Virus record (IMG/VR): IMGVR_UViG_3300020220_000427
Location: 1 to 20,096 of that record
DNA: 20,096 bases
Direction: 5' to 3' (one strand)
From: a virus
The first letter of the stretch is position 1. The number at the start of each line of letters is the position of its first letter. The notes under the pieces are model-generated. The model was not told where the DNA came from. It did no database searches and saw only the letters and a program-made list of their open reading frames with translations. Below, piece by piece: positions 1,147-19,899 of the stretch. Made by a program: the position numbers and the translations under genes.

Positions 1147-1557
1147 TTATGAAGGTTTTATTGGCCAGGTAAGTTCGATAACGTTGTTGACAGATAAAAG
1201 TTCTTGATCAGTTATTGTTGAAGGAAAATCTCTAAGTTCTTGTCTGTAAATTTCCCATTCTTCTCTTTTTTCTGGAGATAATGGAGAACTTGGAAAAGCT
1301 GTCCAATCACATCTCAAAAGATAACTATTTCTTTTTTCTCTCAGTTCATACCATCTAATTTCTAAAATCTCATTATCTGGTTTTTTCTCTATTCTTTTTG
1401 TCTCTGGATTATACCAGTAATCTATTTTTGCAAAATTTTTATAATCTTCTTCAGTGACCACATAACATTTAACATCTGGTGCCGAACTAAGATTTGGATA
1501 GTGTGAGGTAACACTAAATGCATTAGTGCCATCTTTTACCAAGAGATAAAAATCCAT
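1147..1557 (-). CDS. Phage tail assembly chaperone-like protein (Phage_tail_APC type, 136 aa)
   Basis: The C-terminal half carries the signature of the phage tail/tail-fibre assembly chaperone family. LREKRNSYLLRCDWTAFPSS (about 72-91) is followed by PLSPEKREEWEIYRQELRDF (about 92-111) and then P-S-T-I. The family pattern is RxxLLxxxDWT, then Lsxexxxxwxx-YRQxLRDxP. Such proteins are usually encoded next to tail-fibre genes and help fibres fold or attach; some remain in the particle. The N-terminal about 65 residues form a small domain with YNPETKRIEKKP that links to the chaperone helix. The start ATG overlaps the stop of the upstream small fibre gene by one base (TAATG), which implies translational coupling. 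Family assignment is strong from the motif; the client is inferred to be one or more of the fibres upstream. Confidence 0.8.
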   Translation of the reverse strand: MDFYLLVKDGTNAFSVTSHYPNLSSAPDVKCYVVTEEDYKNFAKIDYWYNPETKRIEKKPDNEILEIRWYELREKRNSYLLRCDWTAFPSSPLSPEKREEWEIYRQELRDFPSTITDQELLSVNNVIELTWPIKPS

Positions 1558-1925
1558 TATTTAGCCCAACTCCCAGTCCAATTACAAGCTGGCGTAGCTC
1601 TTTGTTCTGAATTATAAACAACTAACTCAATATCCCCAGACCTTACATTGTAATAACAATAAAGACTATCGTTTCCATCCACACCACCAGCAAAGTAAAT
1701 TTCTCTTGAAGAATTTATAAACTGTTTTAGATTACTCATTGAATAACCAGTAGGAGGATACGTGTAACTAGTCTGCCCAGAATTAACTCCATATGTATGT
1801 CGATAATTTGAATCATAGGACATGAAATCTGTGGAAGATCCAGTTTTAAGCTGGTCCTTCAGTGCCGTTCCAGCAAAATTTCTAATGGTATTAACTTCAA
1901 TTGTTTCTACTCTTAAGGTACTCAT
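1557..1925 (-). CDS. Small tail-fibre/adhesin-like protein (122 aa)
   Basis: The N-terminus MSTLRVETIEVNTIRNFAGT resembles the short anchoring motif (STLxVxTI...NxAGT) seen in many cyanophage fibre proteins, and is shared in outline with the two C1q-like neighbours (MSTLIANTVLTTN and MASVVSANTLQTTN). The remainder is Tyr-, Ser- and Asn-rich (for example GQTSYTYPPTGYSMSNLKQF) and beta-rich, ending NWTGSWAK, as expected of a trimeric fibre tip. No named domain is recognised in residues 30-122. The ATG directly follows the TAA of the upstream gene and its own stop overlaps the start of the assembly-chaperone gene, so it is in the same coupled set. A virion or receptor-binding role is inferred from context and the N-terminal motif. 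Confidence 0.6.
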   Translation of the reverse strand: MSTLRVETIEVNTIRNFAGTALKDQLKTGSSTDFMSYDSNYRHTYGVNSGQTSYTYPPTGYSMSNLKQFINSSREIYFAGGVDGNDSLYCYYNVRSGDIELVVYNSEQRATPACNWTGSWAK

Positions 1926-2276
1926 TTATACCGTCCTCCCTAGGGCTTCGTTGAAAATCGCATCAATTTCTGGTGAAATATTTTGCACTGGAGTATTGTC
2001 ACAAACATTACATCCAGCAGCATATTCTTTTTCCACTCTAATTGTCCTTGCCTTAGCAGTTTCTATTGGAGAATTTAGAATAATTTCATTTTTGTTTGCT
2101 GGAATAGATTGAATATAAGGATCATTAATAAGTCTTTCAGTTTCTACTTTTAGTAATTCTTCAATAGCTGATTCCGATCTTACATCAATTGCATTTTGCA
2201 GCCAATCTTGAATATCATACATGGTATGTTCAAGTGCTCTTTTTTGAACATCATTAATAATAACAGTAATTTCCAT
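1926..2276 (-). CDS. Conserved phage protein of unknown function (116 aa)
   Basis: It begins MEITVIINDVQKRALEHTMY and has a strongly helical first half (ALEHTMYDIQDWLQNAIDVR, then SAIEELLKVETERLIND), followed by an Ile/Asn-rich linker and a C-terminal part with the pair CNVCD. I recall similar proteins (short beta start, NDVQKxALE, DIQxW) in cyanophages beside small fibre genes, but know no function. The start is set at 2276: GGAGG lies 9 nt upstream of this ATG, whereas the TTG at 2285 that would add three residues sits directly on the GGAGG and is a poor start. The gene overlaps nothing and follows the C1q-like paralogue's TGA by 5 nt. The CxxC could bind a metal, but with only two Cys this is weak. 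Confidence 0.65.
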   Translation of the reverse strand: MEITVIINDVQKRALEHTMYDIQDWLQNAIDVRSESAIEELLKVETERLINDPYIQSIPANKNEIILNSPIETAKARTIRVEKEYAAGCNVCDNTPVQNISPEIDAIFNEALGRTV

Positions 2277-2281
2277 AAAAG

Positions 2282-2785
2282 TCAACCTCCGATTAGATAA
2301 CCCATATATGTATTATGGGTGCCACAGCATCTTGTTCCGCTATTGATATTATAAACCCTCACTGTATCATTTTTATTTAGTGCAAAAATAGCAAATGCTT
2401 CCATAGTTTTATGACCGCTGAAATTTCCAGAATATCCTGCACCATAACTATCTGTTGATGCTCCATTAATATACCATCTTAGATCAACAATTTCACCATT
2501 ACTAGGTGTTAAAGTCTTACACCAAAATGCATAAAGTCCTTTTTCAGGTGCAGTAGCAGTTCCATTTGCATTGTACCAATTTCCTCTGTTTGCTAAAATA
2601 TTACCAAATGACATATATCCACCACCACCTTCATCACCTTGTCCATTTCTAGTTGCAATAAAATAAGGAAGATTAGGTCGATACAACCGTCCATCAGAAG
2701 ACGGTGTTATTGCAGATCCAGTTGGAATTGCTTTAGCAGTAAGATTGGTTGTTTGTAATGTATTTGCACTTACAACAGAAGCCAT
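2282..2785 (-). CDS. C1q/TNF-like small fibre protein, copy B (167 aa)
   Basis: The N-terminus (1-32, MASVVSANTLQTTN...) is a short anchor. Residues about 41-166 match the C1q/TNF-like jelly-roll pattern: FIATRNGQG, then MSFGNILANRGNWYNANG, an APxxGLYAFWC strand, and a closing THNTYMGYLIGG that corresponds to the typical terminal GxL strand. Such domains trimerise and commonly act as ligand-binding tips. A Cys pair (GTRCCGTH) is conserved in both paralogues. It is a tandem paralogue of the next gene upstream (2788-3279), separated by 2 nt. The two differ mainly in residues 1-40 and near KTMEAFAIFALNKNDT, so the tip surface differs while the core is kept. Receptor binding is inference. Confidence 0.75.
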   Translation of the reverse strand: MASVVSANTLQTTNLTAKAIPTGSAITPSSDGRLYRPNLPYFIATRNGQGDEGGGGYMSFGNILANRGNWYNANGTATAPEKGLYAFWCKTLTPSNGEIVDLRWYINGASTDSYGAGYSGNFSGHKTMEAFAIFALNKNDTVRVYNINSGTRCCGTHNTYMGYLIGG

Positions 2786-2874
2786 AATTATCCAATCAAG
2801 TATCCCATATATGTATTATGGGTGCCACAGCATCTTGTTCCGCTATTGATATTATAAACCCTCACTGTATCATT
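2301..2874. repeat. Tandem gene duplication with exact 71-bp direct repeat
   Basis: The 71 bp at 2301-2371 and at 2804-2874 are identical and encode the C-terminal strands of the two C1q-like genes. A second identical block of about 66 bp lies at 2556-2621 and 3059-3124. The intervening parts differ, so the identity is patchy. This is consistent with a tandem duplication followed by diversification or by conversion of the core. Confidence 0.85.
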
Positions 2875-3279
2875 CGCATTCAAAAGAGTTATAAAATGTG
2901 CTATCATGGGTTTATGTGCACTCCAATTACCAGAATATCCTGCACCATAATTATCTGTTGATGCTCCATTAACATACCATCGTAAATCAATAACTTCACC
3001 ATTACTAGGTGTTAAAGTCTTACACCAAAATGCATAAAGTCCAGTAACTGGCGCCGTGGCAGTTCCATTTGCATTGTACCAATTTCCTCTGTTTGCTAAA
3101 ATATTACCAAATGACATATATCCAGTACCACCTTCATCACCTTGTCCATTTCTAGTTGCAAGAAAATAAGGTGTATTTGGAGTAAAAAATATTCCAGAAG
3201 AATCAATAGTGGCACATATTGTACCATTAGTATGTTGAATATTAGTTGTTAATACTGTATTTGCAATTAAGGTGCTCAT
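2788..3279 (-). CDS. C1q/TNF-like small fibre protein, copy A (163 aa)
   Basis: It has the same layout as its downstream paralogue: an N-terminal anchor MSTLIANTVLTTNIQ, a short spacer, then a C1q/TNF-like domain (about 38-162) with FLATRNGQG, MSFGNILANRGNWYNANG, APVTGLYAFWCK, RWYVNGAST and the closing THNTYMGYLIG. The C1q family consensus (aromatic, then vxxNxGxxYn, aPxxGxYxF) fits closely. It is the first gene after a 54-bp gap and may have its own start signal (TATAAT at 3333-3328). No clear Shine-Dalgarno sequence precedes the ATG. With the long collagen-like rods upstream, this gives the collagen stalk plus C1q head combination known from animal C1q, but encoded on separate polypeptides; a physical link is unproven. 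Confidence 0.75.
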   Translation of the reverse strand: MSTLIANTVLTTNIQHTNGTICATIDSSGIFFTPNTPYFLATRNGQGDEGGTGYMSFGNILANRGNWYNANGTATAPVTGLYAFWCKTLTPSNGEVIDLRWYVNGASTDNYGAGYSGNWSAHKPMIAHFITLLNANDTVRVYNINSGTRCCGTHNTYMGYLIG

Positions 3280-3649: not shown

Positions 3650-6600
3650 TCAATCCTCGTTTACATCATTCTTTTCGTATTTATTCATAAAATTTGATAG
3701 TTTTTCATCAAAACTAGACAGAATTCTACGGTATGCCATATCACGCTTATCCATTGTGTCACTCATTTCTTTTATTGCTTCAATAAGAACAGCGACCAAG
3801 TTTTGGTAAGCAACAGACTTGACACCTTCTCCGTGAACAAGTTCGGGGAAGACGGTCTCAAGTTCTTGTGCAATAAGACCGATTGATTTGCCACCATGAG
3901 ATCTATAGTTGAACTCAACACCTCTCAACTTCTTGACCTTTTCAAGTGCATTTTCAATAGGAGTAATGCGAGTCTTGATTGATCTGTCAGAACTTGCAGT
4001 TACAGTTCCTGGTACAACTAGATTACCAGTGTTTGGAACGAACGAGAATGCAGTTGCCGTTGTTCTGACTTTTGCATTTTGAGCTCCAGAACCAGAAACG
4101 AATACGGGATAATGAGTTGTTGCTGATGTGGAATCTTCTGCATAACTCAGAGTTGTTGTAGAACCTTGAGCACCTACAATACCTTGAACACCTTGAGGAC
4201 CAAATGGACCTTGACTACCTTGCAGACCTTGAACACCTTGTCCAGCGAAGGAACCAGAAACACCTTGAATTCCTCTGACAAAGTTTCCAAGGTTGAAGTA
4301 AACAACTTCAATAATATCACCAGCAGATGCACCAGATGTTAGTACAACCGAAGTTCCATTTGTTGCGGTGTATTCTGCATTTTCTTGTAGGTGAGAACCG
4401 TTAAGATATACAAGGATATATTGTGTACCATAGTTGACCGAAAACACTGTTTGTCCAGCTGTTGCTGAAAAAACGGTTTTTGTAATTGACGATGGTGTTG
4501 TTGTTACGACTTGTCCTTGAACACCTTGAGTTCCTTGTCCACCAACAACTCCCCCTAGACCCTGATTACCTTGTGTTCCCTGTCCAGCGGATGAACCTTG
4601 AACACCCTGGTTCTGCCTTCCCTGAACACCTTGAGTTCCTTGGAATGCCTGAGCACCTATCGTTCCCTGAGCGCCAATAGTGCCTTGAGAGCCAACACCT
4701 TGAGTTCCTTGTCTACCTTGAACACCTTGAGTCCCTTGATTTCCTATTGTACCTTGAGCTCCTATTGCACCTTGAGCTCCTATTGCACCTTGAGATCCTA
4801 TTGCACCTTGAGCTCCCGTTCCTGTAGTGCCCTGGCGGCCCTGAGTTCCTTGATTACCTTGGGAACCGAAACTACCTACAGTTCCCTGAGAACCAACAGT
4901 ACCTTGAGATCCAACGCCTTGACTGCCTTGTGCTCCTTGGTTACCAGATGTTCCACTAAGACCTTGAGATCCTATTGTACCTTGAGCACCTTGAGTTCCT
5001 TGTCTACCTTGAAGACCTTGAGTTCCTTGATTGCCTTGAAGACCTTGGGTTGCTTGTCTACCTTGAAGACCTTGAGTACCTTGAATTCCTTGATTACTTA
5101 ATCCCTGTAATCCCTGAGTTCCTTGTCTACCTTGAAGACCTTGAGTCCCCTGAGTTGCTTGCATACCCTGGGCACCTTGTCCAGCATTTGTACCAGCGGC
5201 ACCTTGAAGACCTTGAGAACCTTGAGTCCCTTGAAGACCAACACCTTGAGTTCCTTGTCTACCTTGAGTGCCTTGTAACCCCTGTAATCCTTGTAATCCT
5301 TGAGCACCTTGAGCGCCTTGAGTCCCTTGAGGACCTTGGGTTCCTTGAACAGCTTGGGTTCCTTGTGTTGCTTGAACACCCTGAGTTCCTTGAGTGCCTT
5401 GAGGACCTTGAGTACCTTGAGAACCCGAACCCTGAACACCTTGAGTACCTTGAGATCCTTGAGCGGCAGTTGCACCTTGGGTTCCTTGATTGCCTTGAAG
5501 ACCTTGCCTACCTTGTAGACCCTGAGTTCCTTGTACCCCTGTTCCTTGAGTGCCTTGAGTTCCTTGATTACCTTGAGTTGCTTGAGGACCTTGGGTTCCT
5601 TGAACACCTTGAGTTCCTTGTCTACCTTGAACACCTTGAGTTCCTTGATTACCTTGAGTCCCTTGTGATCCTTGGAATCCAAGACCTTGGGTTCCTTGAA
5701 CACCTTGTGTTGCTTGAACACCCTGAGTTCCTTGAGTGCCTTGAGTGCCTTGAGTACCTTGTACCCCTGTTCCTTGAGTACCTTGATTACCTTGAAGACC
5801 TTGAAGACCTTGAGAACCAGATCCTTGAATACCTTGATTACCTTGAGTTCCTTGTAGACCTTGTAGACCTTGAGTTCCTTGTAGACCTTGTAGACCTTGA
5901 GTTCCTTGATTGCCTTGAAGACCTTGGGTTGCTTGTGTTCCTTGATTGCCTTGTAAACCTTGAGTCCCCTGGAGTCCCTGAGTTGCTTGAGTTCCTTGTC
6001 TACCTTGAAGACCTTGAGTTCCTTGAACACCTTGATTTCCTTGAAGACCTTGTAGACCTTGTAGACCTTGAGTCCCTTGAGTGCCTTGAGCTCCTTGAGA
6101 ACCAGATCCTTGAATACCTTGATTGCCTTGAGTTCCCTGAGCACCTTGAGTCCCTTGAGTCCCTTGAGTTGCTTGAAGACCTTGGGTTCCTTGATTGCCT
6201 TGAAGACCTTGTATGCCTACCCCTTGTAAACCTTGAGTCCCCTGGAGCCCCTGAGTTCCTTGAGTTCCTTGAGTTCCTTGTCTACCTTGAAGACCTTGAG
6301 TGCCTTGAAGACCTTGATTACCTTGAGTTCCTTGTAGACCTTGTAGACCTTGAGTTCCTTGAACACCTAGAAGACCCTGTAATCCTTGAGTGCCCTGAGT
6401 CGCTTGAGTCCCTTGAGCACCTTGAGTTCCTTGAAGACCCTGTAAGCCTTGAGTGCCTTGGACTCCTTGTAATCCTTGAATTCCTGATCCTTGAATACCT
6501 TGTAAACCTTGAGTTCCCTGAACTCCCTGAAGACCCTGTAAACCTTGAGTTCCTTGGGTTCCTTGAGCACCAACACCTTGAGTTCCTTGTAATCCTTGTG

Positions 6601-9600
6601 CGCCAACACCTTGAACACCTTGAGTTCCTTGATTGCCTTGAAGCCCTTGAGTTCCTTGAGTTCCTTGTCTGCCTTGAAGACCTTGAGTTCCTTGAAGACC
6701 TTGGGTTCCTTGATTACCTTGGAGACCTTGAGTTCCCTGAGTTCCTTGATTACCTTGGAGACCTTGAGTTCCTTGAACACCTTGAAGACCTATTAATCCT
6801 TGTATACCTTGAAGACCTTGAGTTCCTTGAGCACTTTGAGTGCCTTGGATACCTTGGGTTCCTTGAGTTGCTTGTGTTCCTTGAAGACCTTGTAAACTAA
6901 CGCCCTGAATACCCTGATTACCCTGAAGTCCTTGGAGACCTTGTGCTCCTTGATTACTTAAACCTTGAACACCCTGAATTCCCTGAAGTCCCTGGAGACC
7001 TTGTAAACCTTGAATTCCAGATCCTTGAATACCTTGTAAACCTTGAGTGCCTTGAGTGCCTTGAACACCTATACCTTGAACACCTTGGTTGCCTTGAATC
7101 CCTTGAGTGCCTTGATTACCTTGAAGACCCTGAACACCTTGGGTGCCTTGGGTTGCTTGTGTTCCTTGAGTTGCTTGAGTCCCTTGAGCACCTTGAGTGC
7201 CTTGAACACCTTGAGTTCCTTGTAGACCTTGTAGACCTTGAGTTCCTTGAACACCTTGAAGACCTTGAGTTCCTTGAGCACTTTGAGTGCCTTGGACACC
7301 CTGGGTACCTTGAATACCGATTCCACCTTGAATACCTTGGAGACCTTGAAGACCTTGAAGACCTTGAGCACCAACACCTTGAGTGCCTTGAACACCTTGT
7401 GTTGCTTGAGCACCTTGAATACCTTGAATACTTAATCCTTGAAGACCTTGTAGACCCTGTAAACCTTGAGTGCCCTGAGTCGCTTGAGTTCCCTGAGTCG
7501 CTTGAGTTCCCTGATTTCCTTGAGTGCCTTGTAGACCTTGAAGACCTTGATTGCCTTGTAGACCTCTTGATCCTTGAGTTCCTTGGGCTCCTTGAGCACC
7601 TTGAGTGCCCTGTAATCCTTGTAACCCTTGAGTTCCTTGTGTTCCTTGTAATCCTTGTGTTCCTTGTAATCCTTGGGCGCCAACACCTTGAGTGCCCTGA
7701 ACACCTTGAAGACCCTGTGTTCCTTGAATTCCTTGAATTCCCTGAAGACCTTGAGCACCAACACCTTGAAGACCTTGAGTTCCTTGAAGACCTTGAGTTC
7801 CTTGAGTTCCTTGAAGACCTTGAAGACCTTGAAGACCCAAAGTTCCTTGAGTTCCCTGAGTTGCTTGATTTCCCTGGATTCCTTGTGTCCCTTGATTACC
7901 TTGAACACCTTGTAGACCTTGAAGACCTTGAAGACCTTGAACACCTTGTAGACCTTGAGTTGCTTGAGGACCTTGGGTTCCTTGAGCACCTTGAGTTCCT
8001 TGAGTGCCTTGAGTCCCTTGAGTTCCTTGTGTTCCCTGAAGACCTTGTAATCCTTGAGTTCCAGATCCCTGAACACCTTGATCACCCTGAGTTCCTTGTG
8101 TGCCTTGACTTCCTTGAGTTCCAGTTCCTTGAGACCCCTGAAGACCCTGTGTTCCTTGAGACCCTTGAATTCCTTGATTTCCAGATCCCTGAACTCCTTG
8201 AAGACCTTGGAGACCTTGTAGACCTTGAGCACCTACACCTTGAACACCTTGGTTACCTTGAATCCCTTGAAGACCTTGAGTTCCTTGATTACCTTGAAGA
8301 CCTTGAGCACCAACACCTTGAGTTCCTTGAAGACCTTGAAGACCTTGAAGACCTTGAATACCCAAAGTTCCTTGAGTTCCCTGACTACCTATTGATCCTT
8401 GAGTTCCTTGTCTACCTTGAAGACCTTGAGTTCCTTGAAGACCTTGGGTTCCTTGATCACCAGCAACTCCCTGAGTTCCCTGAGCACCAACACCTTGAGA
8501 ACCTTGAAGACCCTGAAGACCTTGAGTGCCTTGGTTACCTTGAGTTCCTAATCCCTGTGTGCCCTGAATACCTTGTGTACCTTGAAGACCTTGTGTACCT
8601 TGAAGACCCTGAGATCCAATATCCCCCTGAACACCCTGTAATCCTTGAGATCCTTGAAGTCCTTGAGTTCCTTGTGTCCCCTGTACACCTTGATTAGAAA
8701 GTCCTTGAAGACCCTGAAGTCCTTGAAGTCCTTGAGTTCCTTGGAGACCTTGAGTGCCTTGGGTACCTTGAGTGCCTTGTACTCCTATTCCTTGAGTTCC
8801 TTGAAGACCTTGTAAACCCTGAGTACTTTGAACACCCTGCAATCCTTGCAATCCTTGAACACCTTGATCTCCTTGCAATCCTTGTGTTCCCTGTAATCCT
8901 TGTAAACCTTGAGTGCCTTGAGTTCCTTGTACTCCTGTTCCTTGAGTTCCTTGTAGACCTTGAAGTCCTTGAGTTCCTTGGAGACCTTGAAGACCTTGAG
9001 TCCCTTGCGTACCTTGGATTCCCTGTGTTCCTTGGAGACCTTGTAAACCTTGGAGACCTTGAGTCCCTTGAGTCCCTTGAGCACCAACACCTTGAGTGCC
9101 CTGAAGACCTTGTAGACCCTGAGTCCCTTGAGAACCTTGAAGACCCTGTAATCCTTGAGTACCCTGAGTCGCTTGAGTACCTTGAGTCGCTTGAGTACCC
9201 TGAGTCGCTTGAGTGCCTTGTAAACCTTGAAGACCTTGAGTGCCTTGTAGACCTTGAAGACCTTGAGTGCCTTGAGTGCCTTGAGCACCAACACCTTGAA
9301 TACCCTGAAGACCCTGTAATCCCTGATTTCCTTGAACACCCTGAAGTCCCTGAGTTCCCTGAGTTCCCTGAGTTCCCTGAACACCTAGATCACCTTGAGT
9401 GCCCTGTAATCCTTGTAACCCTTGAGTTCCTTGAGCTCCTTGGAATCCAGCACCTTGAGTGCCTTGTAATCCTTGCAACCCTTGAGTTCCTTGATTACCT
9501 TGAAGACCCTGAGTTCCTTGAACGCCCTGAACACCAAAGTCACCTTGGGTGCCTTGTAATCCTTGTAATCCTTGTAATCCTTGAGCGCCTTGAACACCCT

Positions 9601-11977
9601 GAACACCAAAGTCACCTTGAGTGCCTTGTAACCCTTGTAATCCTTGGGTCCCCTGGAATCCTTGAACACCAAAGTCACCTTGGGTGCCTTGTAATCCTTG
9701 TAATCCTTGAGTGCCTTGAATACCTTGAAGACCCTGAGTTCCCTGAACACCTTGATTAGAGAGACCTTGTAAACCCTGTAATCCTTGAGTCCCCTGTAAT
9801 CCTTGAGTACCTTGAAATCCTTGAACACCTGTACCCTGAAGACCTTGTAGACCTTGTAGACCTTGAAGACCTTGAGTCCCTTGAACACCTTGAACACCTT
9901 GATTACCAATATCCCCCTGGACACCCTGTAATCCTTGTAATCCTTGAGTGCCTTGAGCTCCTTGATTACTTAAACCTTGAGTGCCCTGAGTTCCTTGAAC
10001 ACCCTGATCTCCTTGAAGACCTTGAGTTCCTTGTGTTCCCTGAACACCTTGATTACCAATATCCCCCTGGACACCCTGTAATCCTTGTAATCCTTGAAGT
10101 CCTTGAGTTCCTTGTGTTCCCTGAACACCTGTTCCTTGAGATCCCTGCAATCCCTGAGTACCTTGATCTCCTTGGACACCTTGAGTGCCTTGGATTCCAA
10201 GGTCTCCTTGAATTCCTTGTAATCCTTGAGTGCCTTGGGACCCCTGAACACCTTGAGTTCCTTGGGATCCTTGGGCACCAATACCCTGAGAACCTTGAAG
10301 ACCTTGAGTTCCTTGAAGACCTTGTAAACCTTGGGTACCCTGAACACCAACATCCCCTTGAAGTCCTTGAGTGCCTTGGAACCCCTGAAGACCTTGTGTT
10401 CCCTGACTACCTTGAAATCCAAGTTGTCCCTGAATGCCCTGAAGACCTTGAGTTCCTTGGGATCCTTGGGTTCCTTGGGACCCTTGTATTCCAGCACCTT
10501 GAATACCTTGCAGACCTTGAGTTCCTTGTAGACCTTGTAGACCTTGAGTTCCTTGATTGCCTTGTATTCCAGCACCTTGAATACCTTGCAGACCTTGAGT
10601 TCCTTGTGTTCCCTGAACACCTTGATTACCAATATCTCCTTGAATGCCTTGTAAACCTTGGGTGCCTTGGAATCCCTGTAGACCTTGAGTTCCTTGTGTT
10701 CCCTGAACACCCGTTCCTTGAGATCCTTGAAGACCTTGAGTTCCTTGCGTACCTTGTACACCTTGATTAGAGAGACCTTGTAGACCCTGTAATCCTTGAG
10801 TGCCCTGTAATCCTTGAGTACCCTGGACACCTTGATTGCTTAATCCTTGAAGTCCTTGAAGACCTTGTAACCCCTGAGTCCCTTGGAATCCTTGAAGACC
10901 CTGATTCCCCTGCATCCCCTGGACACCTTGCAGACCCTGGGTGCCCTGGAATCCCTGTAGTCCTTGAGTTCCTTGAACACCTTGAACACCAGAACCTTGA
11001 ATACCTTGTAAACCTTGGGTGCCCTGGAATCCCTGTAGACCTTGAAGACCTTGAGTTCCTTGATATCCAAGTTCACCTTGAATACCTTGTAATCCTTGAG
11101 TGCCTTGAATACCTTGATTACCCTGTGTACCCTGATATCCAAGTTCACCTTGAATACCTTGTAATCCTTGAGTGCCTTGAATACCTTGATTACCCTGTGT
11201 ACCCTGATATCCAAGTTCACCTTGAATACCTTGTAATCCTTGAGTGCCTTGAATACCTTGATTACCCTGTGTACCCTGATATCCAAGTTCACCTTGAACA
11301 CCTTGAGTTCCCTGAGCACCTTGAACACCCTGATTACTTAGACCTTGAACACCCTGAGAACCCTGAGAACCGACACCTTGCGTACCCTGTATACCCTGAT
11401 CACCTTGAAGACCTTGAGTTCCTTGTACACCTTGATTACTAAGACCTTGGACACCTTGGGCACCCTGAATACCAACATCTCCTTGAAGTCCTTGAGTACC
11501 CTGAACGCCCTGATTACTCAGACCCTGTAGACCTTGGAGACCTTGAAGACCTTGGGTCCCTTGAGTGCCTTGGATTCCCTGAGTTCCTTGTGTTCCCTGA
11601 AAAGTTTCACCCTGAATACCCTGTAGTCCTTGGGTGCTTTGATTTCCTTGTACACCTTGTATCGCCTGACCCTGTAGACCCTGAGTGCCTTGAATACCTT
11701 GATTACCTTGCGTACCCTGTATACCTTGGATACCCTGACTGAATAAATTTTCAGACTTTATCCAATAACGAGAACCAACCTCAGTACCAACTGCAATTAG
11801 AACATATTGATCATAAAATGTGCCATTAGGAACTGGTTTTACCCCAATAGAAGATACACCTACAAGAGGATCCCCCAAATCTGGCTCAGCTTGCTCTACA
11901 CCCAGAAATTCATATCTGTCAGAGGTAATACCAGACTGAGAAAATCTTCTATATCTTCCTGAGGTATATCTTGCCAT
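3650..11977 (-). CDS. Giant collagen-like (Gly-X-Gln) tail fibre with S74 chaperone (2775 aa)
   Basis: Domains in order: (1) residues 1-80, an N-terminal head [12 protein letters not shown]... with [18 protein letters not shown], probably the virion attachment part; (2) about 82-2489, roughly 800 collagen-like triplets, nearly all Gly-X-Gln with X = Thr, Leu, Val, Ile, Asn, Ser or Asp, broken by recurring short interruptions ([15 protein letters not shown]) and Gly-to-Ala tracts (ATQGTQATQ); (3) about 2492-2570, a beta domain [14 protein letters not shown]...YLNGSHL...GDIIEVVYF, common in cyanophage fibres; (4) a short second collagen-like linker; (5) about 2640-2775, a Peptidase_S74 intramolecular chaperone with SDRSIK. 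S2663 and K2668 match the Ser/Lys pair used for self-cleavage, and [15 protein letters not shown] and [16 protein letters not shown] are diagnostic. Predicted to form a trimeric rod; cleavage would release about 113 residues. No strong Shine-Dalgarno sequence precedes the ATG. Function as a host-recognition fibre is inference; the architecture is directly visible. Confidence 0.9.
3678..3685 (-). promoter_or_regulatory. Candidate T4-type late promoter (NATAAATA)
   Basis: AATAAATA on the minus strand matches the T4-like late consensus NATAAATA. It lies within the last codons of the giant fibre gene, with about 30 nt to the ATG at 3648. A second match, CATAAATA at 3391-3384, lies 105 nt before the C1q-like genes. 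Both are short motifs in AT-rich DNA, so chance is possible. Confidence 0.35.
10491..10610. repeat. 78-bp direct repeat within the collagen tract
   Basis: The segment beginning CCAGCACCTTGAATACCTTG occurs at 10491 and again at 10569, 78 bp apart. The two copies match through the following GCAGACCTTGAGTTCC, then diverge. It encodes a 26-residue unit with the GAG-type interruption. Confidence 0.8.
11062..11298. repeat. Exact 72-bp tandem triplication plus partial fourth unit
   Basis: GATATCC-starting units begin at 11062, 11134, 11206 and 11278, exactly 72 bp apart. The first three are identical throughout; the fourth matches for about 21 bp. Each encodes 24 residues starting [12 protein letters not shown], that is, eight collagen triplets. 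The identity marks a recent slippage or unequal-recombination event. Confidence 0.95.
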
Positions 11978-12338: not shown

Positions 12339-15300
12339 TTACTTACCTAACGCAATAATGAGAGGAGTTACTGTATTTAACAGACTTTGACTAAAGGCTC
12401 TACCTGAAATTGTTCCTGTAAGTTGGTTAATAACTACATTATCTCCAATTTGGAAGTTACCTGCTTGGTTTGTACTGGTATATACAACTTGTCCACCTCT
12501 AATTTTATCAACTTCATTTGGTTGAATTGTAACTCCACCCAGAGATGGTTTTGCTGTATTAATATTTGTTCCAGATCCAACCCATTCTAGTGAGATTGAA
12601 GTTGCAATTTGCAAACTCAATCTTGAGAAATAAATTGTTGTACCAGCACCTATCGTACTATTTAGATTTGATAATAGAGTGATGGTTGAGATTCCTGCAA
12701 CAGGAAGTGTTGCACTTTGAATATTAAAATAAATTGGTTCTAAAAATGATATTGCAGCAGCACCGCTACCAACTCCACCAATTGGAGAAAATGTAACTGT
12801 TGGTGGTGTTGAATATTGAGATCCAGAACTAATTACATCAACCGATATTACTGTTCCTGTCGCATCAATGTTTGCACTTCCCTCCGCAGTAATTCCATTT
12901 GGACCAGTTGGGGCGCTGATTATTACATCTGGTGGGAAAAGATATCCACTTCCACCATTTGTTACCTCGATACGAGATACTGTATTATAAAGATCACCAA
13001 AATAAATTGCCTGTCCATCGTAAGGTCTATAAGTGCCAACACCAGAAACAACTATTTCATCAGTTTCAATTTGCGCTTCTCCTACGGATTGAGCGGTATA
13101 ACGATAAATTGATTTTGAAGTCGCATCACCAACACCATCAGAGACAAGACCAAAGTTGCCAAATGAGCAGTTTGAGTTGGTAATATCACATTGTCCTCCA
13201 GATTTAGTAAAGATTCCAATATCGTCACAGATTGTAAAAATAGAAACTAATTGAGCATATGCTCCGTTTGTAACTGATACTCCAATACCACCTTGATTAA
13301 ATTGTGTATAAGAGTCTACAGACATTGTTCCAGTCACGCCAATATCATCTTTATCTCCAGGTTCAGCGTTGAAACCATCAACTTTTAGCCCAATACTATT
13401 GGCAATAAAATTGGTAGCATTTCTGATATATGGTCCCTGATCAATTGGCCCAGTTCCTCTTGAGTAAGGAGGAACAACAACGCCACCAGTCAAGTAATAA
13501 TGAGGGATGGTGTTAATTCCTGTATTGATAACAAAAGTTGACCCATATCCTATGACTTCCTCTACCGCAAAATTATATCCAGTATTAGATGTAGGATAGA
13601 TTGTTGTTGTAGCAGCTCCACTAGTGCAAATAAATTCTAGATCTCTAACAGATACAACATCACCAATATCAACAAACGCTCCTGGTGCTGTAATGGTTGT
13701 GACGCCAGTTATGTGATCATACGTTGCGAAAGAGACAGGTATTGCACGATTGATTATTGTTCCACCAGAGATATAAGTATGTATTAATGTTGATACACCA
13801 ACATAAATTTCAAAAGTATTATCTGAATTAATTTCATCAACATAAAATTCGTATCCAAATTTACCAGATGGGAATTTTTGAGTTGTCGTTCCAATCCCTG
13901 TTCCAGAAGTACAAGAGAATATCAAATCCCTAAGTTCAATTGGATCGCCTTCCCTAACAATCAGTCCAGGTGCTGTGATTGTTGTCTTTCCAGTTTCCCC
14001 CTCATAAATCGCACTAGTTATACCAACAATATCTGTGAATCCATATCCAGAATTACCACCAAAAGCAGGGACAACGACAGAACCAGATTTTAGTGCTGTT
14101 GATCCAAGTCCAACAATACTTGTTACAACTCCAACACAAGAACGAATTGCAGAAATAACATTTTTACATGAATTGAGAGCATCATTATATCCTGTTTGAC
14201 CGTCAATCTGAATTGACATGTCTTTTACTTGAGTGAATGTTGGTTGGAAGTTTCTATATTTTTCAACTGTTCCCCCCGAAACATAAGTATGAGGGAGAAC
14301 TGTTTTACCTGCAACAAAAGTAAATGTGTTTGGACCTACAACAGATTTAACAGGGAAAATGTAATTAAAAGTTCCATCTGGGAAGATTTTTGTTGTATAA
14401 TTTGCGGTGAGGGTTCCACCAGTCACATAAATGTGATCTAAAGTTGAAACTCCAACATTGACCTTAACTTTATTAGAAACATAAAGATCTGGGAAAGATG
14501 GACCTATAGTTCCTATCCCAATAGTTGATGTAAGGATACCGACAAGATTATCGATATTTGACTGAACATCGGCACAAGAATATGGATTTGTATTTGAAGT
14601 GGTTCCGATTCCTGGATTTGGATCAGCCGTAATTGTTAAGTCTCTATTATTGAGTTGATTATTAATTGCAAGTTTTGCATAATCTCTCACAGAATGGAAC
14701 CCGACAATTGACTGTGCGGTTTCTCCAACCAATCCATCCGAAATTGGGACACCAGCGGCGGTGAAGTAAGATCTCGTGGCTTCACGAATATGCTTATTAG
14801 TCCCATATCTTACATCCTTAATAAGTGCATCAACAATAAATCCTAAATCTCTACGACACTTATTTTCTCCTGCAGGAAATACCCCATTATTCACACGAAT
14901 TTTATTGACATTAGTTAATGAACCATTGGTAAATGCAGTGGTTGCAATAGAAACTAAAGTATTAATTGCCTGTTGAACATCCGCACAAGATGCTGTGCTG
15001 GTATTAATGCCAGTTCCAGGATCAGCAGTAATTGTAAGATCAGTGATAGTTAGATTATTAGTAATTGCAAGTTTCATCAGGTTTCTTGCCTGATTGAATG
15101 CATAAACAGATTCTGTTATTTCTCCAACTAATCCATTAGAAATAGGAGCGCCAGATGAATTGAAATATGTTTTAGTAAATTGAATTGTGTAAGTATTTCC
15201 TCCACTAAAGACATCCGTTGAAACTGCATCAACAAAATATGCAAGATCTCGTTTGCACTTATCCATTGTTGTGGATATTCCTGGATAAACATTATAAGTA

Positions 15301-18300
15301 TTAGTCCAAGCAGTTCCGACTATTTCTTGTTTATTTAATTGAATGAGGCGATATGAGTCTTTGAATCTAGAAAATCTAGTGGTTTGTAAATCATTTGGAT
15401 AATAAAAGTCTGGGAAAGATAATGCTATTGCGGCTAAAGATTTATCAATGATTTCATTTTTATTTGACTCTATAAGATTAGAGGCATCGACGTAACGATC
15501 ATTATTTGTTGAGATAACATTAAACTCATATCCAAGATTTCCACTAGGATAATATGCTGTTGCAGGTCCACCACCACTATCACAAATGAATACTAGATTT
15601 TCTAATTTTACCTTTTTATTAGGTTCAATGAAAAGATGTGGTCCAACAGTTGTCCCCAACCCGACAGTGGTAATTGTTGTGATACCAGTGAGTTTATCAT
15701 AAAAAGCGGTAGAAATTCCAAATACTGGAGTATAAAGTCTCCTAGCAGTTCCTCCAGAAACATAGGTGTGATCAAGAGTTGAAACACCAACATTGACCGT
15801 AAATTTAGTTGATGACCTTCTTAGACGTGATGGTGGTGGTTCTATTACATCAAGAACTGTAAAATCATATCCAAGGTTACCACTAGGATAAGATGCTGTT
15901 GATGGTCCACCACCACTATCGCATATAAAAACTAGATCATTTAGTCTTACTCTTTCTCCAGATACGATATCTAGAGAAGAAGACAATGTAATTGTTGATA
16001 TACCAGTTGTCTTATCATATGTTGCGGTAGAAACTGTAATTGCAAATCCTGGGGAACCATTATCACACTCATAGAGCAGCCCAGTAATTCTTGCCGCATC
16101 ATTTTTGACAAGTCCATGATTATTCGCAGTAATTGTGGTTATCCCTGTGCTTGCATCATACACTGCATTAACAACCGTTGTTCCAAGACCTACTGGGTAT
16201 CCACCCCATGTGCAGTTGTTTACAACCGCTCTTGCAATATTAAATGAATAGTCAAGGGTAGCAACTGTCTGCTTAACTTCTTCGGGATTTTTGAGTGTGT
16301 TAGGAATGAAATTGAAGTCATCATTAAAATATGACTTTGCAGCCCCAACACATTTTGCATTACCACCTCTTGTAATATCAAAAGAAACTGCTTTATAAAT
16401 GTCTTTGATATCATCGGCACAATCAATAGAATCTAGATTAACACCATAACGAATTGCAGGAGCCGCAGTTGTTCCAATACCAATCATACTTGTTATAATT
16501 CCAACAAGTTGTCTGATTGTAGTTCCAACACCAACACAACCACCCGCAACTTGAATAACTGATAGATCTTTGAATTGAGTTATGCTCCCAACACCAGACT
16601 GGTATGAAATTGGTGGGGTCAAGTTATTAATAACATGAGTTGCAATTCCTATAGCATAATCAAACGCAGCAATTGTAGCCTGTTGGGTTGCAATCCCAGT
16701 AATGTGAATCAATCCACCAGAATTATTATAGTAAGAAAATCCAGCACCTATTGAATTTCTATTACTGTTTGCTTTCAAATCTTTAGCGACAGCATCTATA
16801 ATACTTACAACGTCTTCTTTACAGTTTGTATAATCATTACTATTCAAATTAAAATTATATCCTGATGGAGATGTCAAGAATCCAACTGCTTCTGCTGCAA
16901 TAAATCCAGTATTCAAATCAAGAAGTCTTGCTGCATCTTGTTCACGATGACTTCCTGCAAATCCACTAAATCCACTGGTTAAGAATCCAACAGATTCTCT
17001 TGCAATATAATCAAGATTGAAACGAAGCAATCTTGCAGCATCAAAATATCTATCTGATGATGGTCCTAATAGTGGTTGTAAGGCAACGATAGCAGCCCCA
17101 TTTGTTGAAGGTTGTCCTCTAAAACTAACATCTGTAACGTGACAACCGCTATTAACATAAAATAAATCTCTCTCTGGATATTTTGGAGTAATCACCACGT
17201 TTCTAAGTTCTGTCCCTTCAACAGAAACTGTTTTTGCCAGAACAATTGGATTCTCTTCAACATAAGTTCCTGGAAATGGTTTGATTGTATCACCAAATAA
17301 AGCTACCGATGCCGCAGATTTAATTGTTCTTTTCGGATGATTTTCTGCCAACCCAGTATTATCATCATTACCGTTTAATGAAACATAGATTGTTCTTCCT
17401 ACTGGTTTGTAGGAAGTAATTTCTACAATTCCTTTTCCATTTGCTTGTGTAGACTCAATATCAATTCCAATTCCAGGAATAACACTTGTAACAATTCCAG
17501 TTAGTTGCGAGCCCTCACCCTTAAAAGTAGTGGCACTAACAATACCAGCACCACTTTGTTCGCCAACTGTGACCAATGATTCATAATCATAAAACTTGAA
17601 GTTTTCTGAACCAGATGGTATATTTTGTGGGTTTTTATATATTACCTGATTTGGATCACCAGCAATAGGTCCTACAAGACCCTGTGTTCCTTGTGGGCTT
17701 TGAACACCCTGATTGCCCTGCATCCCCTGGGTTGCTTGTGTTCCTTGAATACCCTGATCTCCTTGAAGACCTTGAGTTCCTTGGGTTCCTTGAGTTCCTT
17801 GATTGCCTTGAAGACCTTGAAGACCTTGAGTTCCTTGATTACCTTGAAGACCTTGTGTTCCTTGATCTCCAATGGTGCCTTGAACACCTTGATCACCTTG
17901 AGTTCCTTGTTGACCTTGAACACCTTGAGATCCTTGAAGACCTTGGGATCCCTGTAGACCTTGAGTTCCTTGAGTTGCTTGTGTTCCCTGAACACCTTGA
18001 TTAGAAAGTCCCTGAGTTCCTTGAACACCCTGATCTCCTTGAAGACCTTGAAGACCTTGCGTTCCTTGAACACCTTGATTAGCAAGACCCTGAGTTCCTT
18101 GTCCACCTTGAAGACCTTGTGTACCTTGTAAACCTTGTGTACCCTGAACTGATGTCCCCTGAAGACCCTGAAGACCTTGATTCCCCTGGGTTGCTTGTGT
18201 TCCTTGAAAGTTACTGAGAGGTCCCTGGACACCTTGAGTTCCTTGAACACCCTGAGTTCCTTGAAGACCTTGAAGACCTTGAAGACCTTGAATACCCTGG

Positions 18301-19115
18301 TTAGCAAGACCCTGACCACCTTGTGTTGCTTGAGCACCTTGAAGACCTTGATTACCTTGAAGACCTTGAGTTGCTTGAACTCCTTGCAATCCTTGAACAC
18401 CCTGAGGTCCTCTAGTAGCAGCTTTGAGAATTGAAAACTCAGTAGCATTGACAATTGTGTTGACTGGTGTTGCTTGATCTGCCTGGTCCATCCAGGCATA
18501 AACTTCAATATAGTCTCCAGCATTTATTAATGCTTGTGTTGCAATCTGTAAGTTTTTACCATTTCCTGCTGCTGTTCCACCACTGTAGGTAGTGGTTCTT
18601 GTTTGTGTAACTTCAACTCCATTTAGGAAAATAGAGCATATTGGATTTACCTCTGCCGCACCAGTGTTATCAATACCAATATTGATATTGATAATGTAAA
18701 TACCATTATTATTGATAGTTATTCTTTGGGGTATAGTTGTATTAGAATGCGTAAAAAAGTCAGTTTTATAGACTTCAGAATCAAATCGAATAGGAACTCT
18801 ATTCGCATAAGTTACATTGATATCTTCAGTGAGAGAAGTTTTTCTAAACTTCGCAGCCTGAAGTTCTGTTCCATATCCAACATTACCCCAAAACCAACCC
18901 CCATTACCGTCAGATAAAACAAGATCACCAATATTACCAGAAAAATTTGCAGAATCATAAATTCCACCATTAATTCTTACATTATTAAATGTAGAATTCT
19001 CTGGTGATTGTATGTCACCTTTGAAAAGTTCTGCCTCTATTTGTTGGAAAAACTTAGCATTCTGATAAAACCACGCCTCTTCGCCAACTATAAATCTATT
19101 TTCTGGTGCTGGCAT
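12339..19115 (-). CDS. Multidomain virion fibre with jelly roll, collagen-like shaft and beta-helix (2258 aa)
   Basis: Domains in order: N-terminal attachment region (1-90, MPAPENRFIVGEEAWFYQ...); TNF/C1q-like jelly roll (about 95-233, with FDSEVYKTDFFTHSN and NNNGIYIININIGI); collagen-like shaft (236-482), mostly Gly-X-Gln with GLANQ/GLSNQ breaks; a linker with GDPNQVIYKN and FKGEGSQLTGI; a pectin-lyase-like beta-helix (about 571-670, GRTIYVSLNGNDDNTG and HPKRTIKSA...PGTYVEENPI). Then come repeating modules: helical Cys modules (CKEDVVSIIDAVAKDL, CADDIKDIYKAVSFD, CKRDLAYFVDAVSTDV, CRRDLGFIVDALIKDV) and beta modules (AxYDxxTGxTTIT...FxCxSG...GYxF...HTYVSGGT). Further beta-helix follows (KVDGFNAEPG..., GGIGVSVTNGAYAQLVS), and the end GNFQIGDNVVINQLTGTISG is typical of cyanophage fibre C-termini. 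It starts 10 bp after the spike-like gene. No S74 domain is seen. Probably a baseplate-attached or long tail fibre. Confidence 0.85.
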   Translation of the reverse strand: MPAPENRFIVGEEAWFYQNAKFFQQIEAELFKGDIQSPENSTFNNVRINGGIYDSANFSGNIGDLVLSDGNGGWFWGNVGYGTELQAAKFRKTSLTEDINVTYANRVPIRFDSEVYKTDFFTHSNTTIPQRITINNNGIYIININIGIDNTGAAEVNPICSIFLNGVEVTQTRTTTYSGGTAAGNGKNLQIATQALINAGDYIEVYAWMDQADQATPVNTIVNATEFSILKAATRGPQGVQGLQGVQATQGLQGNQGLQGAQATQGGQGLANQGIQGLQGLQGLQGTQGVQGTQGVQGPLSNFQGTQATQGNQGLQGLQGTSVQGTQGLQGTQGLQGGQGTQGLANQGVQGTQGLQGLQGDQGVQGTQGLSNQGVQGTQATQGTQGLQGSQGLQGSQGVQGQQGTQGDQGVQGTIGDQGTQGLQGNQGTQGLQGLQGNQGTQGTQGTQGLQGDQGIQGTQATQGMQGNQGVQSPQGTQGLVGPIAGDPNQVIYKNPQNIPSGSENFKFYDYESLVTVGEQSGAGIVSATTFKGEGSQLTGIVTSVIPGIGIDIESTQANGKGIVEITSYKPVGRTIYVSLNGNDDNTGLAENHPKRTIKSAASVALFGDTIKPFPGTYVEENPIVLAKTVSVEGTELRNVVITPKYPERDLFYVNSGCHVTDVSFRGQPSTNGAAIVALQPLLGPSSDRYFDAARLLRFNLDYIARESVGFLTSGFSGFAGSHREQDAARLLDLNTGFIAAEAVGFLTSPSGYNFNLNSNDYTNCKEDVVSIIDAVAKDLKANSNRNSIGAGFSYYNNSGGLIHITGIATQQATIAAFDYAIGIATHVINNLTPPISYQSGVGSITQFKDLSVIQVAGGCVGVGTTIRQLVGIITSMIGIGTTAAPAIRYGVNLDSIDCADDIKDIYKAVSFDITRGGNAKCVGAAKSYFNDDFNFIPNTLKNPEEVKQTVATLDYSFNIARAVVNNCTWGGYPVGLGTTVVNAVYDASTGITTITANNHGLVKNDAARITGLLYECDNGSPGFAITVSTATYDKTTGISTITLSSSLDIVSGERVRLNDLVFICDSGGGPSTASYPSGNLGYDFTVLDVIEPPPSRLRRSSTKFTVNVGVSTLDHTYVSGGTARRLYTPVFGISTAFYDKLTGITTITTVGLGTTVGPHLFIEPNKKVKLENLVFICDSGGGPATAYYPSGNLGYEFNVISTNNDRYVDASNLIESNKNEIIDKSLAAIALSFPDFYYPNDLQTTRFSRFKDSYRLIQLNKQEIVGTAWTNTYNVYPGISTTMDKCKRDLAYFVDAVSTDVFSGGNTYTIQFTKTYFNSSGAPISNGLVGEITESVYAFNQARNLMKLAITNNLTITDLTITADPGTGINTSTASCADVQQAINTLVSIATTAFTNGSLTNVNKIRVNNGVFPAGENKCRRDLGFIVDALIKDVRYGTNKHIREATRSYFTAAGVPISDGLVGETAQSIVGFHSVRDYAKLAINNQLNNRDLTITADPNPGIGTTSNTNPYSCADVQSNIDNLVGILTSTIGIGTIGPSFPDLYVSNKVKVNVGVSTLDHIYVTGGTLTANYTTKIFPDGTFNYIFPVKSVVGPNTFTFVAGKTVLPHTYVSGGTVEKYRNFQPTFTQVKDMSIQIDGQTGYNDALNSCKNVISAIRSCVGVVTSIVGLGSTALKSGSVVVPAFGGNSGYGFTDIVGITSAIYEGETGKTTITAPGLIVREGDPIELRDLIFSCTSGTGIGTTTQKFPSGKFGYEFYVDEINSDNTFEIYVGVSTLIHTYISGGTIINRAIPVSFATYDHITGVTTITAPGAFVDIGDVVSVRDLEFICTSGAATTTIYPTSNTGYNFAVEEVIGYGSTFVINTGINTIPHYYLTGGVVVPPYSRGTGPIDQGPYIRNATNFIANSIGLKVDGFNAEPGDKDDIGVTGTMSVDSYTQFNQGGIGVSVTNGAYAQLVSIFTICDDIGIFTKSGGQCDITNSNCSFGNFGLVSDGVGDATSKSIYRYTAQSVGEAQIETDEIVVSGVGTYRPYDGQAIYFGDLYNTVSRIEVTNGGSGYLFPPDVIISAPTGPNGITAEGSANIDATGTVISVDVISSGSQYSTPPTVTFSPIGGVGSGAAAISFLEPIYFNIQSATLPVAGISTITLLSNLNSTIGAGTTIYFSRLSLQIATSISLEWVGSGTNINTAKPSLGGVTIQPNEVDKIRGGQVVYTSTNQAGNFQIGDNVVINQLTGTISGRAFSQSLLNTVTPLIIALGK
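13500..16170. repeat. Internal beta-module and helical-module repeats in the 2258-aa fibre
   Basis: Five beta modules begin near residues 985, 1033, 1142, 1703 and 1798. Each has YDxxTGxTTIT, mostly followed by a C-x-S-G turn, YPSGNxGYxF and VSTLxHTYVSGGT. Between them lie paired helical modules (for example near 1288-1380 and 1420-1520) sharing FxxxGxPISxGLVGE and LTITADPxxGI. Identity is clear in protein and only patchy in DNA, so these are older duplications. Confidence 0.8.
17672..18410. repeat. Second Gly-X-Gln repeat tract (739 bp)
   Basis: This is the collagen-like part of the 2258-aa fibre. It uses the same 9-bp units and the same interruption words (GLSNQ and the related GLANQ) as the 7.2-kb tract downstream and lies in the same orientation. 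The two tracts therefore form a pair of dispersed direct repeats. Confidence 0.9.
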
Positions 19116-19125
19116 GTGATTTTAC

Positions 19126-19899
19126 CTATAGGATAGTGACACCAGGAACAGTATTACTCCTTACTTGAGCTCGTTCCTCATTTGTAATTGGACGACTCAA
19201 TTCAGCATCAAGACCTGCAGTGGTACTAGCAGTGGTACTAGCAGTGGCACTAGCAGTGGAACGACTAGTCGAAATTCCAGTAGTCGAAATTCCAGAAGAT
19301 GGAATACAAGGTTTACTTGTTGTAGTCGCATCAACGTTATTACCAGTTACTGGAATATTTGGTAACGCAGCCATTGCTTTTTCAAGAACATCTTTAGCAA
19401 CATAAGTTCCATCAAATACTTTCGTACCAAAAGTTCCACCCTCCACTTTTGATATAACATTTCCAGACAATCCCTTAGCATCAACAATATTAGAGTCTAA
19501 CAATATTCTTCCAGCACCACCTTTCATGCTGATATTTCTTCCTGCTTTTATATCTACATCCTCATCAGCTTCAATTGTTATATTTTTTCCTTTGATTCTA
19601 ATAGATCCATTACGTAGTGCAGTAATTGTAACATCTCCAGCCATCGAAGTAATAACAATGTCAACACCTTTTTCAGATGTTTTATTTCCTGCTACAATTT
19701 CGATAAATCTATCGTTGTAAATTCTGTATGACCCCCCTTCGGTAAGACCAGTAAGATTTACATCATTACTAGAATTGAAACTATACATCGCATATGCCAA
19801 AGACCCATTTGCCCCCATTTGTGGCGTGGAAGTATCAATCCTAAAAGTAGGCATTGCCCAAATATCTCTAGCTTCCCAGTTTTGATTTGATCTTGACAT
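19126..19899 (-). CDS. Beta-helix spike/baseplate-like structural protein (257 aa)
   Basis: Residues 1-55 form an N-terminal region (MSRSNQNWEARDIWAMPTFR). Residues about 56-140 show short alternating strands with Gly/Asp/Asn turns (GDVTITALRNGSIRIKGKNI, ADEDVDIKAGRNISMKGGAG), the pattern of the triple-stranded beta-helix at the end of T4 gp5 and VgrG-type spikes. Residues 200-230 are low-complexity Ser/Thr/Ala, encoded by 12-bp repeats, and the end is TNEERAQVRSNTVPGVTIL. No lysozyme domain is visible, so this is not a full gp5; a separate spike segment or baseplate component is the best inference. It lies 41 bp after the Pro-rich gene and 10 bp before the large fibre. No good Shine-Dalgarno sequence is seen at the ATG. 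Confidence 0.6.
   Translation of the reverse strand: MSRSNQNWEARDIWAMPTFRIDTSTPQMGANGSLAYAMYSFNSSNDVNLTGLTEGGSYRIYNDRFIEIVAGNKTSEKGVDIVITSMAGDVTITALRNGSIRIKGKNITIEADEDVDIKAGRNISMKGGAGRILLDSNIVDAKGLSGNVISKVEGGTFGTKVFDGTYVAKDVLEKAMAALPNIPVTGNNVDATTTSKPCIPSSGISTTGISTSRSTASATASTTASTTAGLDAELSRPITNEERAQVRSNTVPGVTIL
19218..19265. repeat. 12-bp tandem repeat coding S/T/A tail
   Basis: CAGTGGTACTAG occurs at 19218 and 19230, with a one-base variant (CAGTGGCACTAG) at 19242 and a decayed unit at 19254. It encodes the Ser/Thr/Ala-rich linker at about residues 212-229 of the spike-like protein and is likely to vary in copy number. Confidence 0.8.

Follow-up and report, generated by a model that had tools for sequence, protein, structure and literature searches.

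C1q domains encoded beside phage tail fibres are known as likely receptor binders, and small tip genes in tandem recur in related phages. Genes for such domains near tail fibres have been reported as putative receptor binders within hypervariable islands (PMC3909814; PMC7468147), their heads are hypervariable between phages (PMC3909814), and C1q also occurs on contractile-injection fibres (PMC12923769). The C1q proteins of marine pelagiphage and cryoconite phage (PMC3909814, PMC7468147) lie near a tail fibre, as do the two proteins described here, A and B, and the domain is their variable part. They come from other phage groups, however, whereas A and B form a pair of short paralogues marked by conversion tracts, and they show no population variation in three contigs. 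The same fold is found in animal C1q, cerebellin, and C1QL heads, which have the signatures TAPxxGxYxF and L-x-x-x-D-T-V in common with A and B, but the identity is about 20%, A and B lack a collagen stalk in the same chain, and no immune role is implied. The C-terminal domain of BclA from Bacillus (3tyj) is a prokaryotic C1q/TNF-type head linked with collagen-like sequence, as is the case here. In BclA, head and collagen are part of one chain, whereas here they are on separate genes.

The proteins of ACG-2014j (“exosporium leader peptide”, 178 aa) and S-CAM4 that belong to phrog_15750 are of the same family and size class as A and B, have a single C1q domain, and likewise follow tail proteins within a cluster of structural genes. 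However, they are only about 20-25% identical to A, they have a common N-terminus (MATNIGTGPQDIPLNQF) that is missing from A and B, and, unlike A and B, they have no close tandem paralogues. In ACG-2014j-like contigs this N-terminus is kept, and the head that follows may be a C1q domain or one that does not match C1q. At 3001-3516 of contig L025, the N-terminal segment of the ACG-2014j C1q protein is joined to a head without a C1q match, so that a module has been exchanged there. A further, distant C1q gene can come directly after, as at 3577-4746 of contig L016. Because of these contigs, we regard the exchange of heads and the presence of neighbouring small tip genes as general in this phage group. 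The tandem 112-aa proteins of S-8S55 (WLW37671/WLW37672) are likewise duplicated small tip-like genes in a Kyanoviridae tail cassette, and that pair also precedes a tail assembly chaperone and 2OG-Fe(II) oxygenases, but it belongs to a different family, homologous to a 122-aa protein of the DNA analysed here, and has no conversion blocks. A and B extend the set of cyanophage tip proteins of the C1q type by a clear tandem example. Searching named phages by tblastn gave no match with A and marginal matches only with B, another alignment (A3) had no conserved stretch fit for searching, and a scan of genome contigs found no relatives. Our profile A4 (described below) detected no C1q open reading frame at positions 28000-62000 of the S-SRM01 record, though BFVD lists a C1q protein for this phage.

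The window, by which we mean the whole stretch of DNA analysed (20,096 nucleotides), is a viral fragment of 20 kb whose main genes run along the minus strand. As judged from its neighbours, the pair sits in the tail-fibre cassette of a member of the Kyanoviridae (T4-like cyanophages). Among named phages, the best relatives of the protein at 19126-19899, at about 40% identity, come from the Synechococcus phages S-SRM01, S-CAM7, S-SKS1, and ACG-2014f, and in S-SRM01 (Kyanoviridae) the relative directly follows the baseplate hub and lysozyme gene. From this protein the gene order runs through the 2258-aa fibre, a 117-aa protein, the 2775-aa fibre, a 104-aa fibre-end-like protein, A, B, the 116-aa protein, the 122-aa tip-like protein, and the tail-fibre assembly chaperone to a 2OG-Fe(II) oxygenase. 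The pair is thus flanked by an S74 collagen-like fibre and a tail-fibre chaperone, a position that is characteristic of phage receptor-binding proteins. When we used the 116-aa neighbour to look for a syntenic relative with a different tip, we found none beyond the same virus. The main neighbours of the pair are as follows.

12339-19115: fibre of 2258 aa with collagen repeats
3650..11977, minus strand: collagen-like tail fibre of 2775 aa, upstream of the pair, with an S74 intramolecular chaperone at its end and no C1q domain
1926..2276, minus strand: 116-aa protein directly downstream of B; GGAGG precedes it, within the end of B
1557..1925, minus strand: 122-aa protein, a second type of small tip-like protein (phrog_30680)
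1147..1557, minus strand: tail fibre assembly chaperone (Phage_tail_APC)

A and B themselves are two adjacent complete open reading frames on the minus strand, with 2 nt between the stop of A and the start of B, and they are 75% identical in amino-acid sequence. Their longest exact DNA matches are 71, 66, 48, and 35 bp, which confirms the tandem paralogues with shared blocks of 71 and about 66 bp that had been described in the original prediction.

2788..3279, minus strand: A, C1q-like protein of 163 aa (N-terminal spacer 1-36, C1q domain 37-163), an open reading frame matching phrog_15750 (E 4e-11) whose model matches Cbln1/C1q
2282..2785, minus strand: B, C1q-like protein of 167 aa, paralogue of A, an open reading frame matching phrog_15750 (E 7e-10)
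2804..2874, minus strand: 71-bp exact block, copy in A (G strand, G-H loop, and start of H)
2301..2371, minus strand: 71-bp exact block, copy in B
3059..3124, minus strand: 66-bp exact block, copy in A (A' strand to B strand)
2556..2621, minus strand: 66-bp exact block, copy in B
3172..3279, minus strand: N-terminal spacer of A, which begins MSTLIANT, similar to the MSTLRVET at the start of the neighbouring 122-aa protein
2669..2785, minus strand: N-terminal spacer of B, with indels relative to A

Two other IMG/VR data sets contain contigs of the same virus that are 99.4-99.9% identical to the window and have both genes. Because both contigs carry the two genes unchanged, an assembly artefact can be ruled out as the source of the pair. 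Among the three contigs there are 0 nucleotide differences inside A or B, so that no variant pointing to population-level diversification was found in this set.

To place the proteins in a family, we compared them with profiles and with solved structures. Against Pfam C1q (PF00386), B scores 20.2 bits and A 16.7 bits, both under the gathering cut-off of 23.7, and because of this we describe them as C1q-like, or as having a C1q fold, and not as Pfam members; the phrog_15750 member of ACG-2014j passes with 44 bits. The matches to phrog_15750 span positions 2-168 of the 168 in the HMM for A and 28-168 for B. Used as single queries against solved C1q heads, A and B gave weak support, while a profile built from a 12-row alignment with phage relatives (A4) matched cerebellin, C1q chains, adiponectin, and collagen X with E values from 2e-25 to 5e-3. 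The same alignment yielded a model of A with a pLDDT of 67 (70-90 over most of the domain, <50 for residues 1-33), which is a monomer of moderate confidence with an unresolved N-terminus; a model built from A and B alone reached a pLDDT of only 35. The model of A has the ten-strand jelly-roll fold, and Foldseek matched it with a probability of 1.00 to Cbln1 (5kc5), the C1q C chain (1pk6_C), and BclA (3tyj), with a TM to target of 0.71-0.81 for 5kc5 and 1pk6 (0.81 for the C1q C chain), as well as to many viral C1q proteins. Because of the profile A4 and the model's matches to Cbln1, C1q, and BclA, we assign A and B as heads of the C1q fold, each preceded by a short spacer that is not modelled, in agreement with the C1q/TNF-like fold predicted from the sequence. 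The parallel with animal C1q that was drawn at the same time extends to the fold, but not to the architecture: there are no Gly-X-Y repeats within A or B, and hence no single-chain stalk and head of the animal type, and collagen-like sequence is confined to other proteins of the window, of which the one adjacent to the pair ends in an S74 chaperone.

The two genes are a mosaic of nearly identical and strongly diverged tracts. Their gap-free block of 417 bp has 67 differences (84% identical), and a 71-bp identical run is not expected given that number (permutation p = 1e-4). Nei-Gojobori counts per segment, in the residue numbering of A, gave dN/dS of 0.63/0.79 for residues 1-36, 0.064/0.18 for 37-120, 0.28/0.69 for 121-145, and 0/0.87 for 146-163. 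The N-terminal spacer of about 36 residues, which also contains indels, is therefore strongly diverged, as had been noticed at the outset. In all four segments dN is lower than dS, so there is no sign of diversifying selection, and the check along the alignment that had been proposed for it found no segment with dN above dS. Synonymous differences are clustered, as measured by the three longest difference-free runs of degenerate identical codons (p = 1.5e-4). Because of this clustering, the shared blocks look like gene-conversion tracts, although with two sequences, no direct relatives, and no outgroup this is not strictly separable from uneven constraint at the nucleotide level. Where the original prediction had left the preserved core to gene conversion or selection, the clustering favours conversion. 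In contrast, the tandem 112-aa pair of S-8S55, which occupies a comparable site in its own tail cassette, has a dS of 1.31 and no identical run >20 bp.

Within the domain, amino-acid differences cluster at residues 118-135 of A (15-residue window p = 0.004). A divergent loop near residues 125-140 had been predicted, and a cluster of differences is indeed present (119-135 in A), but most of it falls on predicted beta-strand F, the most divergent element of the domain.

2881..2913, minus strand: predicted strand F of A, KPMIAHFITLL
2378..2410, minus strand: strand F of B, KTMEAFAIFAL

Between the two copies of this strand, 16/33 nt and 6/11 aa differ, so that residues 123-133 hold 6 of the 17 domain substitutions (Fisher p = 0.0007), and 9 of the 17 fall within residues 116-135, which reach from the E-F loop into the first part of the F-G turn (p = 1e-4); these segments were chosen after inspection of the data, and the p values are descriptive. 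By the secondary structure of the A model, 11 of the 17 substitutions are in beta-strands. Loops A-A', B'-B, C-D, E-F, and G-H, which we assign to the apex from standard TNF/C1q topology, differ at 3 of their 40 residues (Fisher p = 0.26) and are neither enriched nor significantly depleted; two of the three are in the E-F loop, while the G-H loop is identical in DNA between A and B and the A-A' loop is nearly so. The expectation that the differences would map to the exposed apex is thus not borne out by a monomer model combined with standard topology, and a hot spot of divergence that looks like a “receptor loop” in the bare sequence may lie on an internal strand. Strand F of TNF/C1q folds sits in the inner, interface-side sheet. 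At the positions where A has H128, F129, T131, and L132, B has F, A, F, and A, and these swaps of bulky and small residues suggest repacking. This repacking is the one unusual point of the pair, and it might stop two trimers from mixing.

Taken together, we consider it likely that A and B are tandem-duplicated C1q-type tip proteins (adhesins) of the Kyanoviridae that have been partly homogenised by gene conversion. As two small virion proteins, each would most likely form a homotrimeric C1q knob, to judge from the fold, the gene position, and published phage C1q proteins, and the knob may attach to a tail fibre or to the baseplate through the ~36 residues at its N-terminus and contact the cell surface. 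After the tandem duplication, later conversion events would have overwritten several tracts, including most of the inferred apex loops, while the unconverted rest (the N-terminal spacer, the E-F loop with strand F, and short patches) would keep an older divergence under purifying selection. Because conversion covers most of the apex loops and divergence lies mainly elsewhere, the ligands of A and B are probably identical or closely alike, and what separates the two copies is probably the way they dock or the way their subunits pack. This C1q-shaped pair of a cyanobacterial virus probably helps to grip the host. The local diversification of a receptor-binding tip that was first proposed, in which selection changed the tip around a constant core and fitted A and B to different receptors, could draw on the cluster at 118-135, on the two differences in the E-F loop, and on the hypervariability of C1q heads between phages (PMC3909814). 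We give it little credence, as dN stays below dS in each segment, the cluster lies on predicted strand F, and the inferred apex loops are not enriched in differences.

The divergence of strand F and the N-terminus could also have set the order of subunits in a single heteromeric knob, comparable to the A, B, and C chains of C1q. The genes are adjacent, the strand F swaps look compensatory, and TNF/C1q topology places this strand on the interface-side sheet, but ACG-2014j has a single phrog_15750 gene at its locus, and we consider a heteromer quite improbable. Least probable, in our estimate, is a functional main copy beside a redundant one, duplicated without distinct roles and bound for loss or fixation; no difference between A and B is of a necessarily functional kind, and tandem pairs are recurrent at this sort of locus, yet neither frame is broken in any of the three contigs, dN stays below dS, and the unconverted tracts preserve an old divergence. 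Rather unlikely is a reading in which conversion maintains identity in the loops that face the receptor, with strand F and the docking segment at the N-terminus kept distinct. One phage would then present a single type of binding face on two trimers that are insulated from each other and sit at two different sites of the virion (or on an ordered heteromer). If this were true, the pair would offer a simple system for how paralogous phage tips avoid mixing.

Some neighbours of the pair deserve mention in their own right. The 2775-aa fibre (3650-11977) has about 700 Gly-X-Y triplets, mostly G-X-Q and dominated by G-T-Q and G-L-Q, and with 16 Pro in 2775 residues it raises the matter of how a near-proline-free triple helix is stabilised. 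Near 11125-11345 this fibre has four ELGYQ units, whereas each of the two other contigs of this virus has three, a difference of one 72-bp (24-aa) unit in copy number or an assembly collapse. The 2OG-Fe(II) oxygenase at 345-1130 lies just past the tail cassette, and several such genes are found around the tip genes of S-8S55; it is conceivable that the enzyme modifies fibre proteins. The 122-aa protein has relatives in Synechococcus, Cellulophaga, and Winogradskyella phages, a small tip module found across unrelated hosts.
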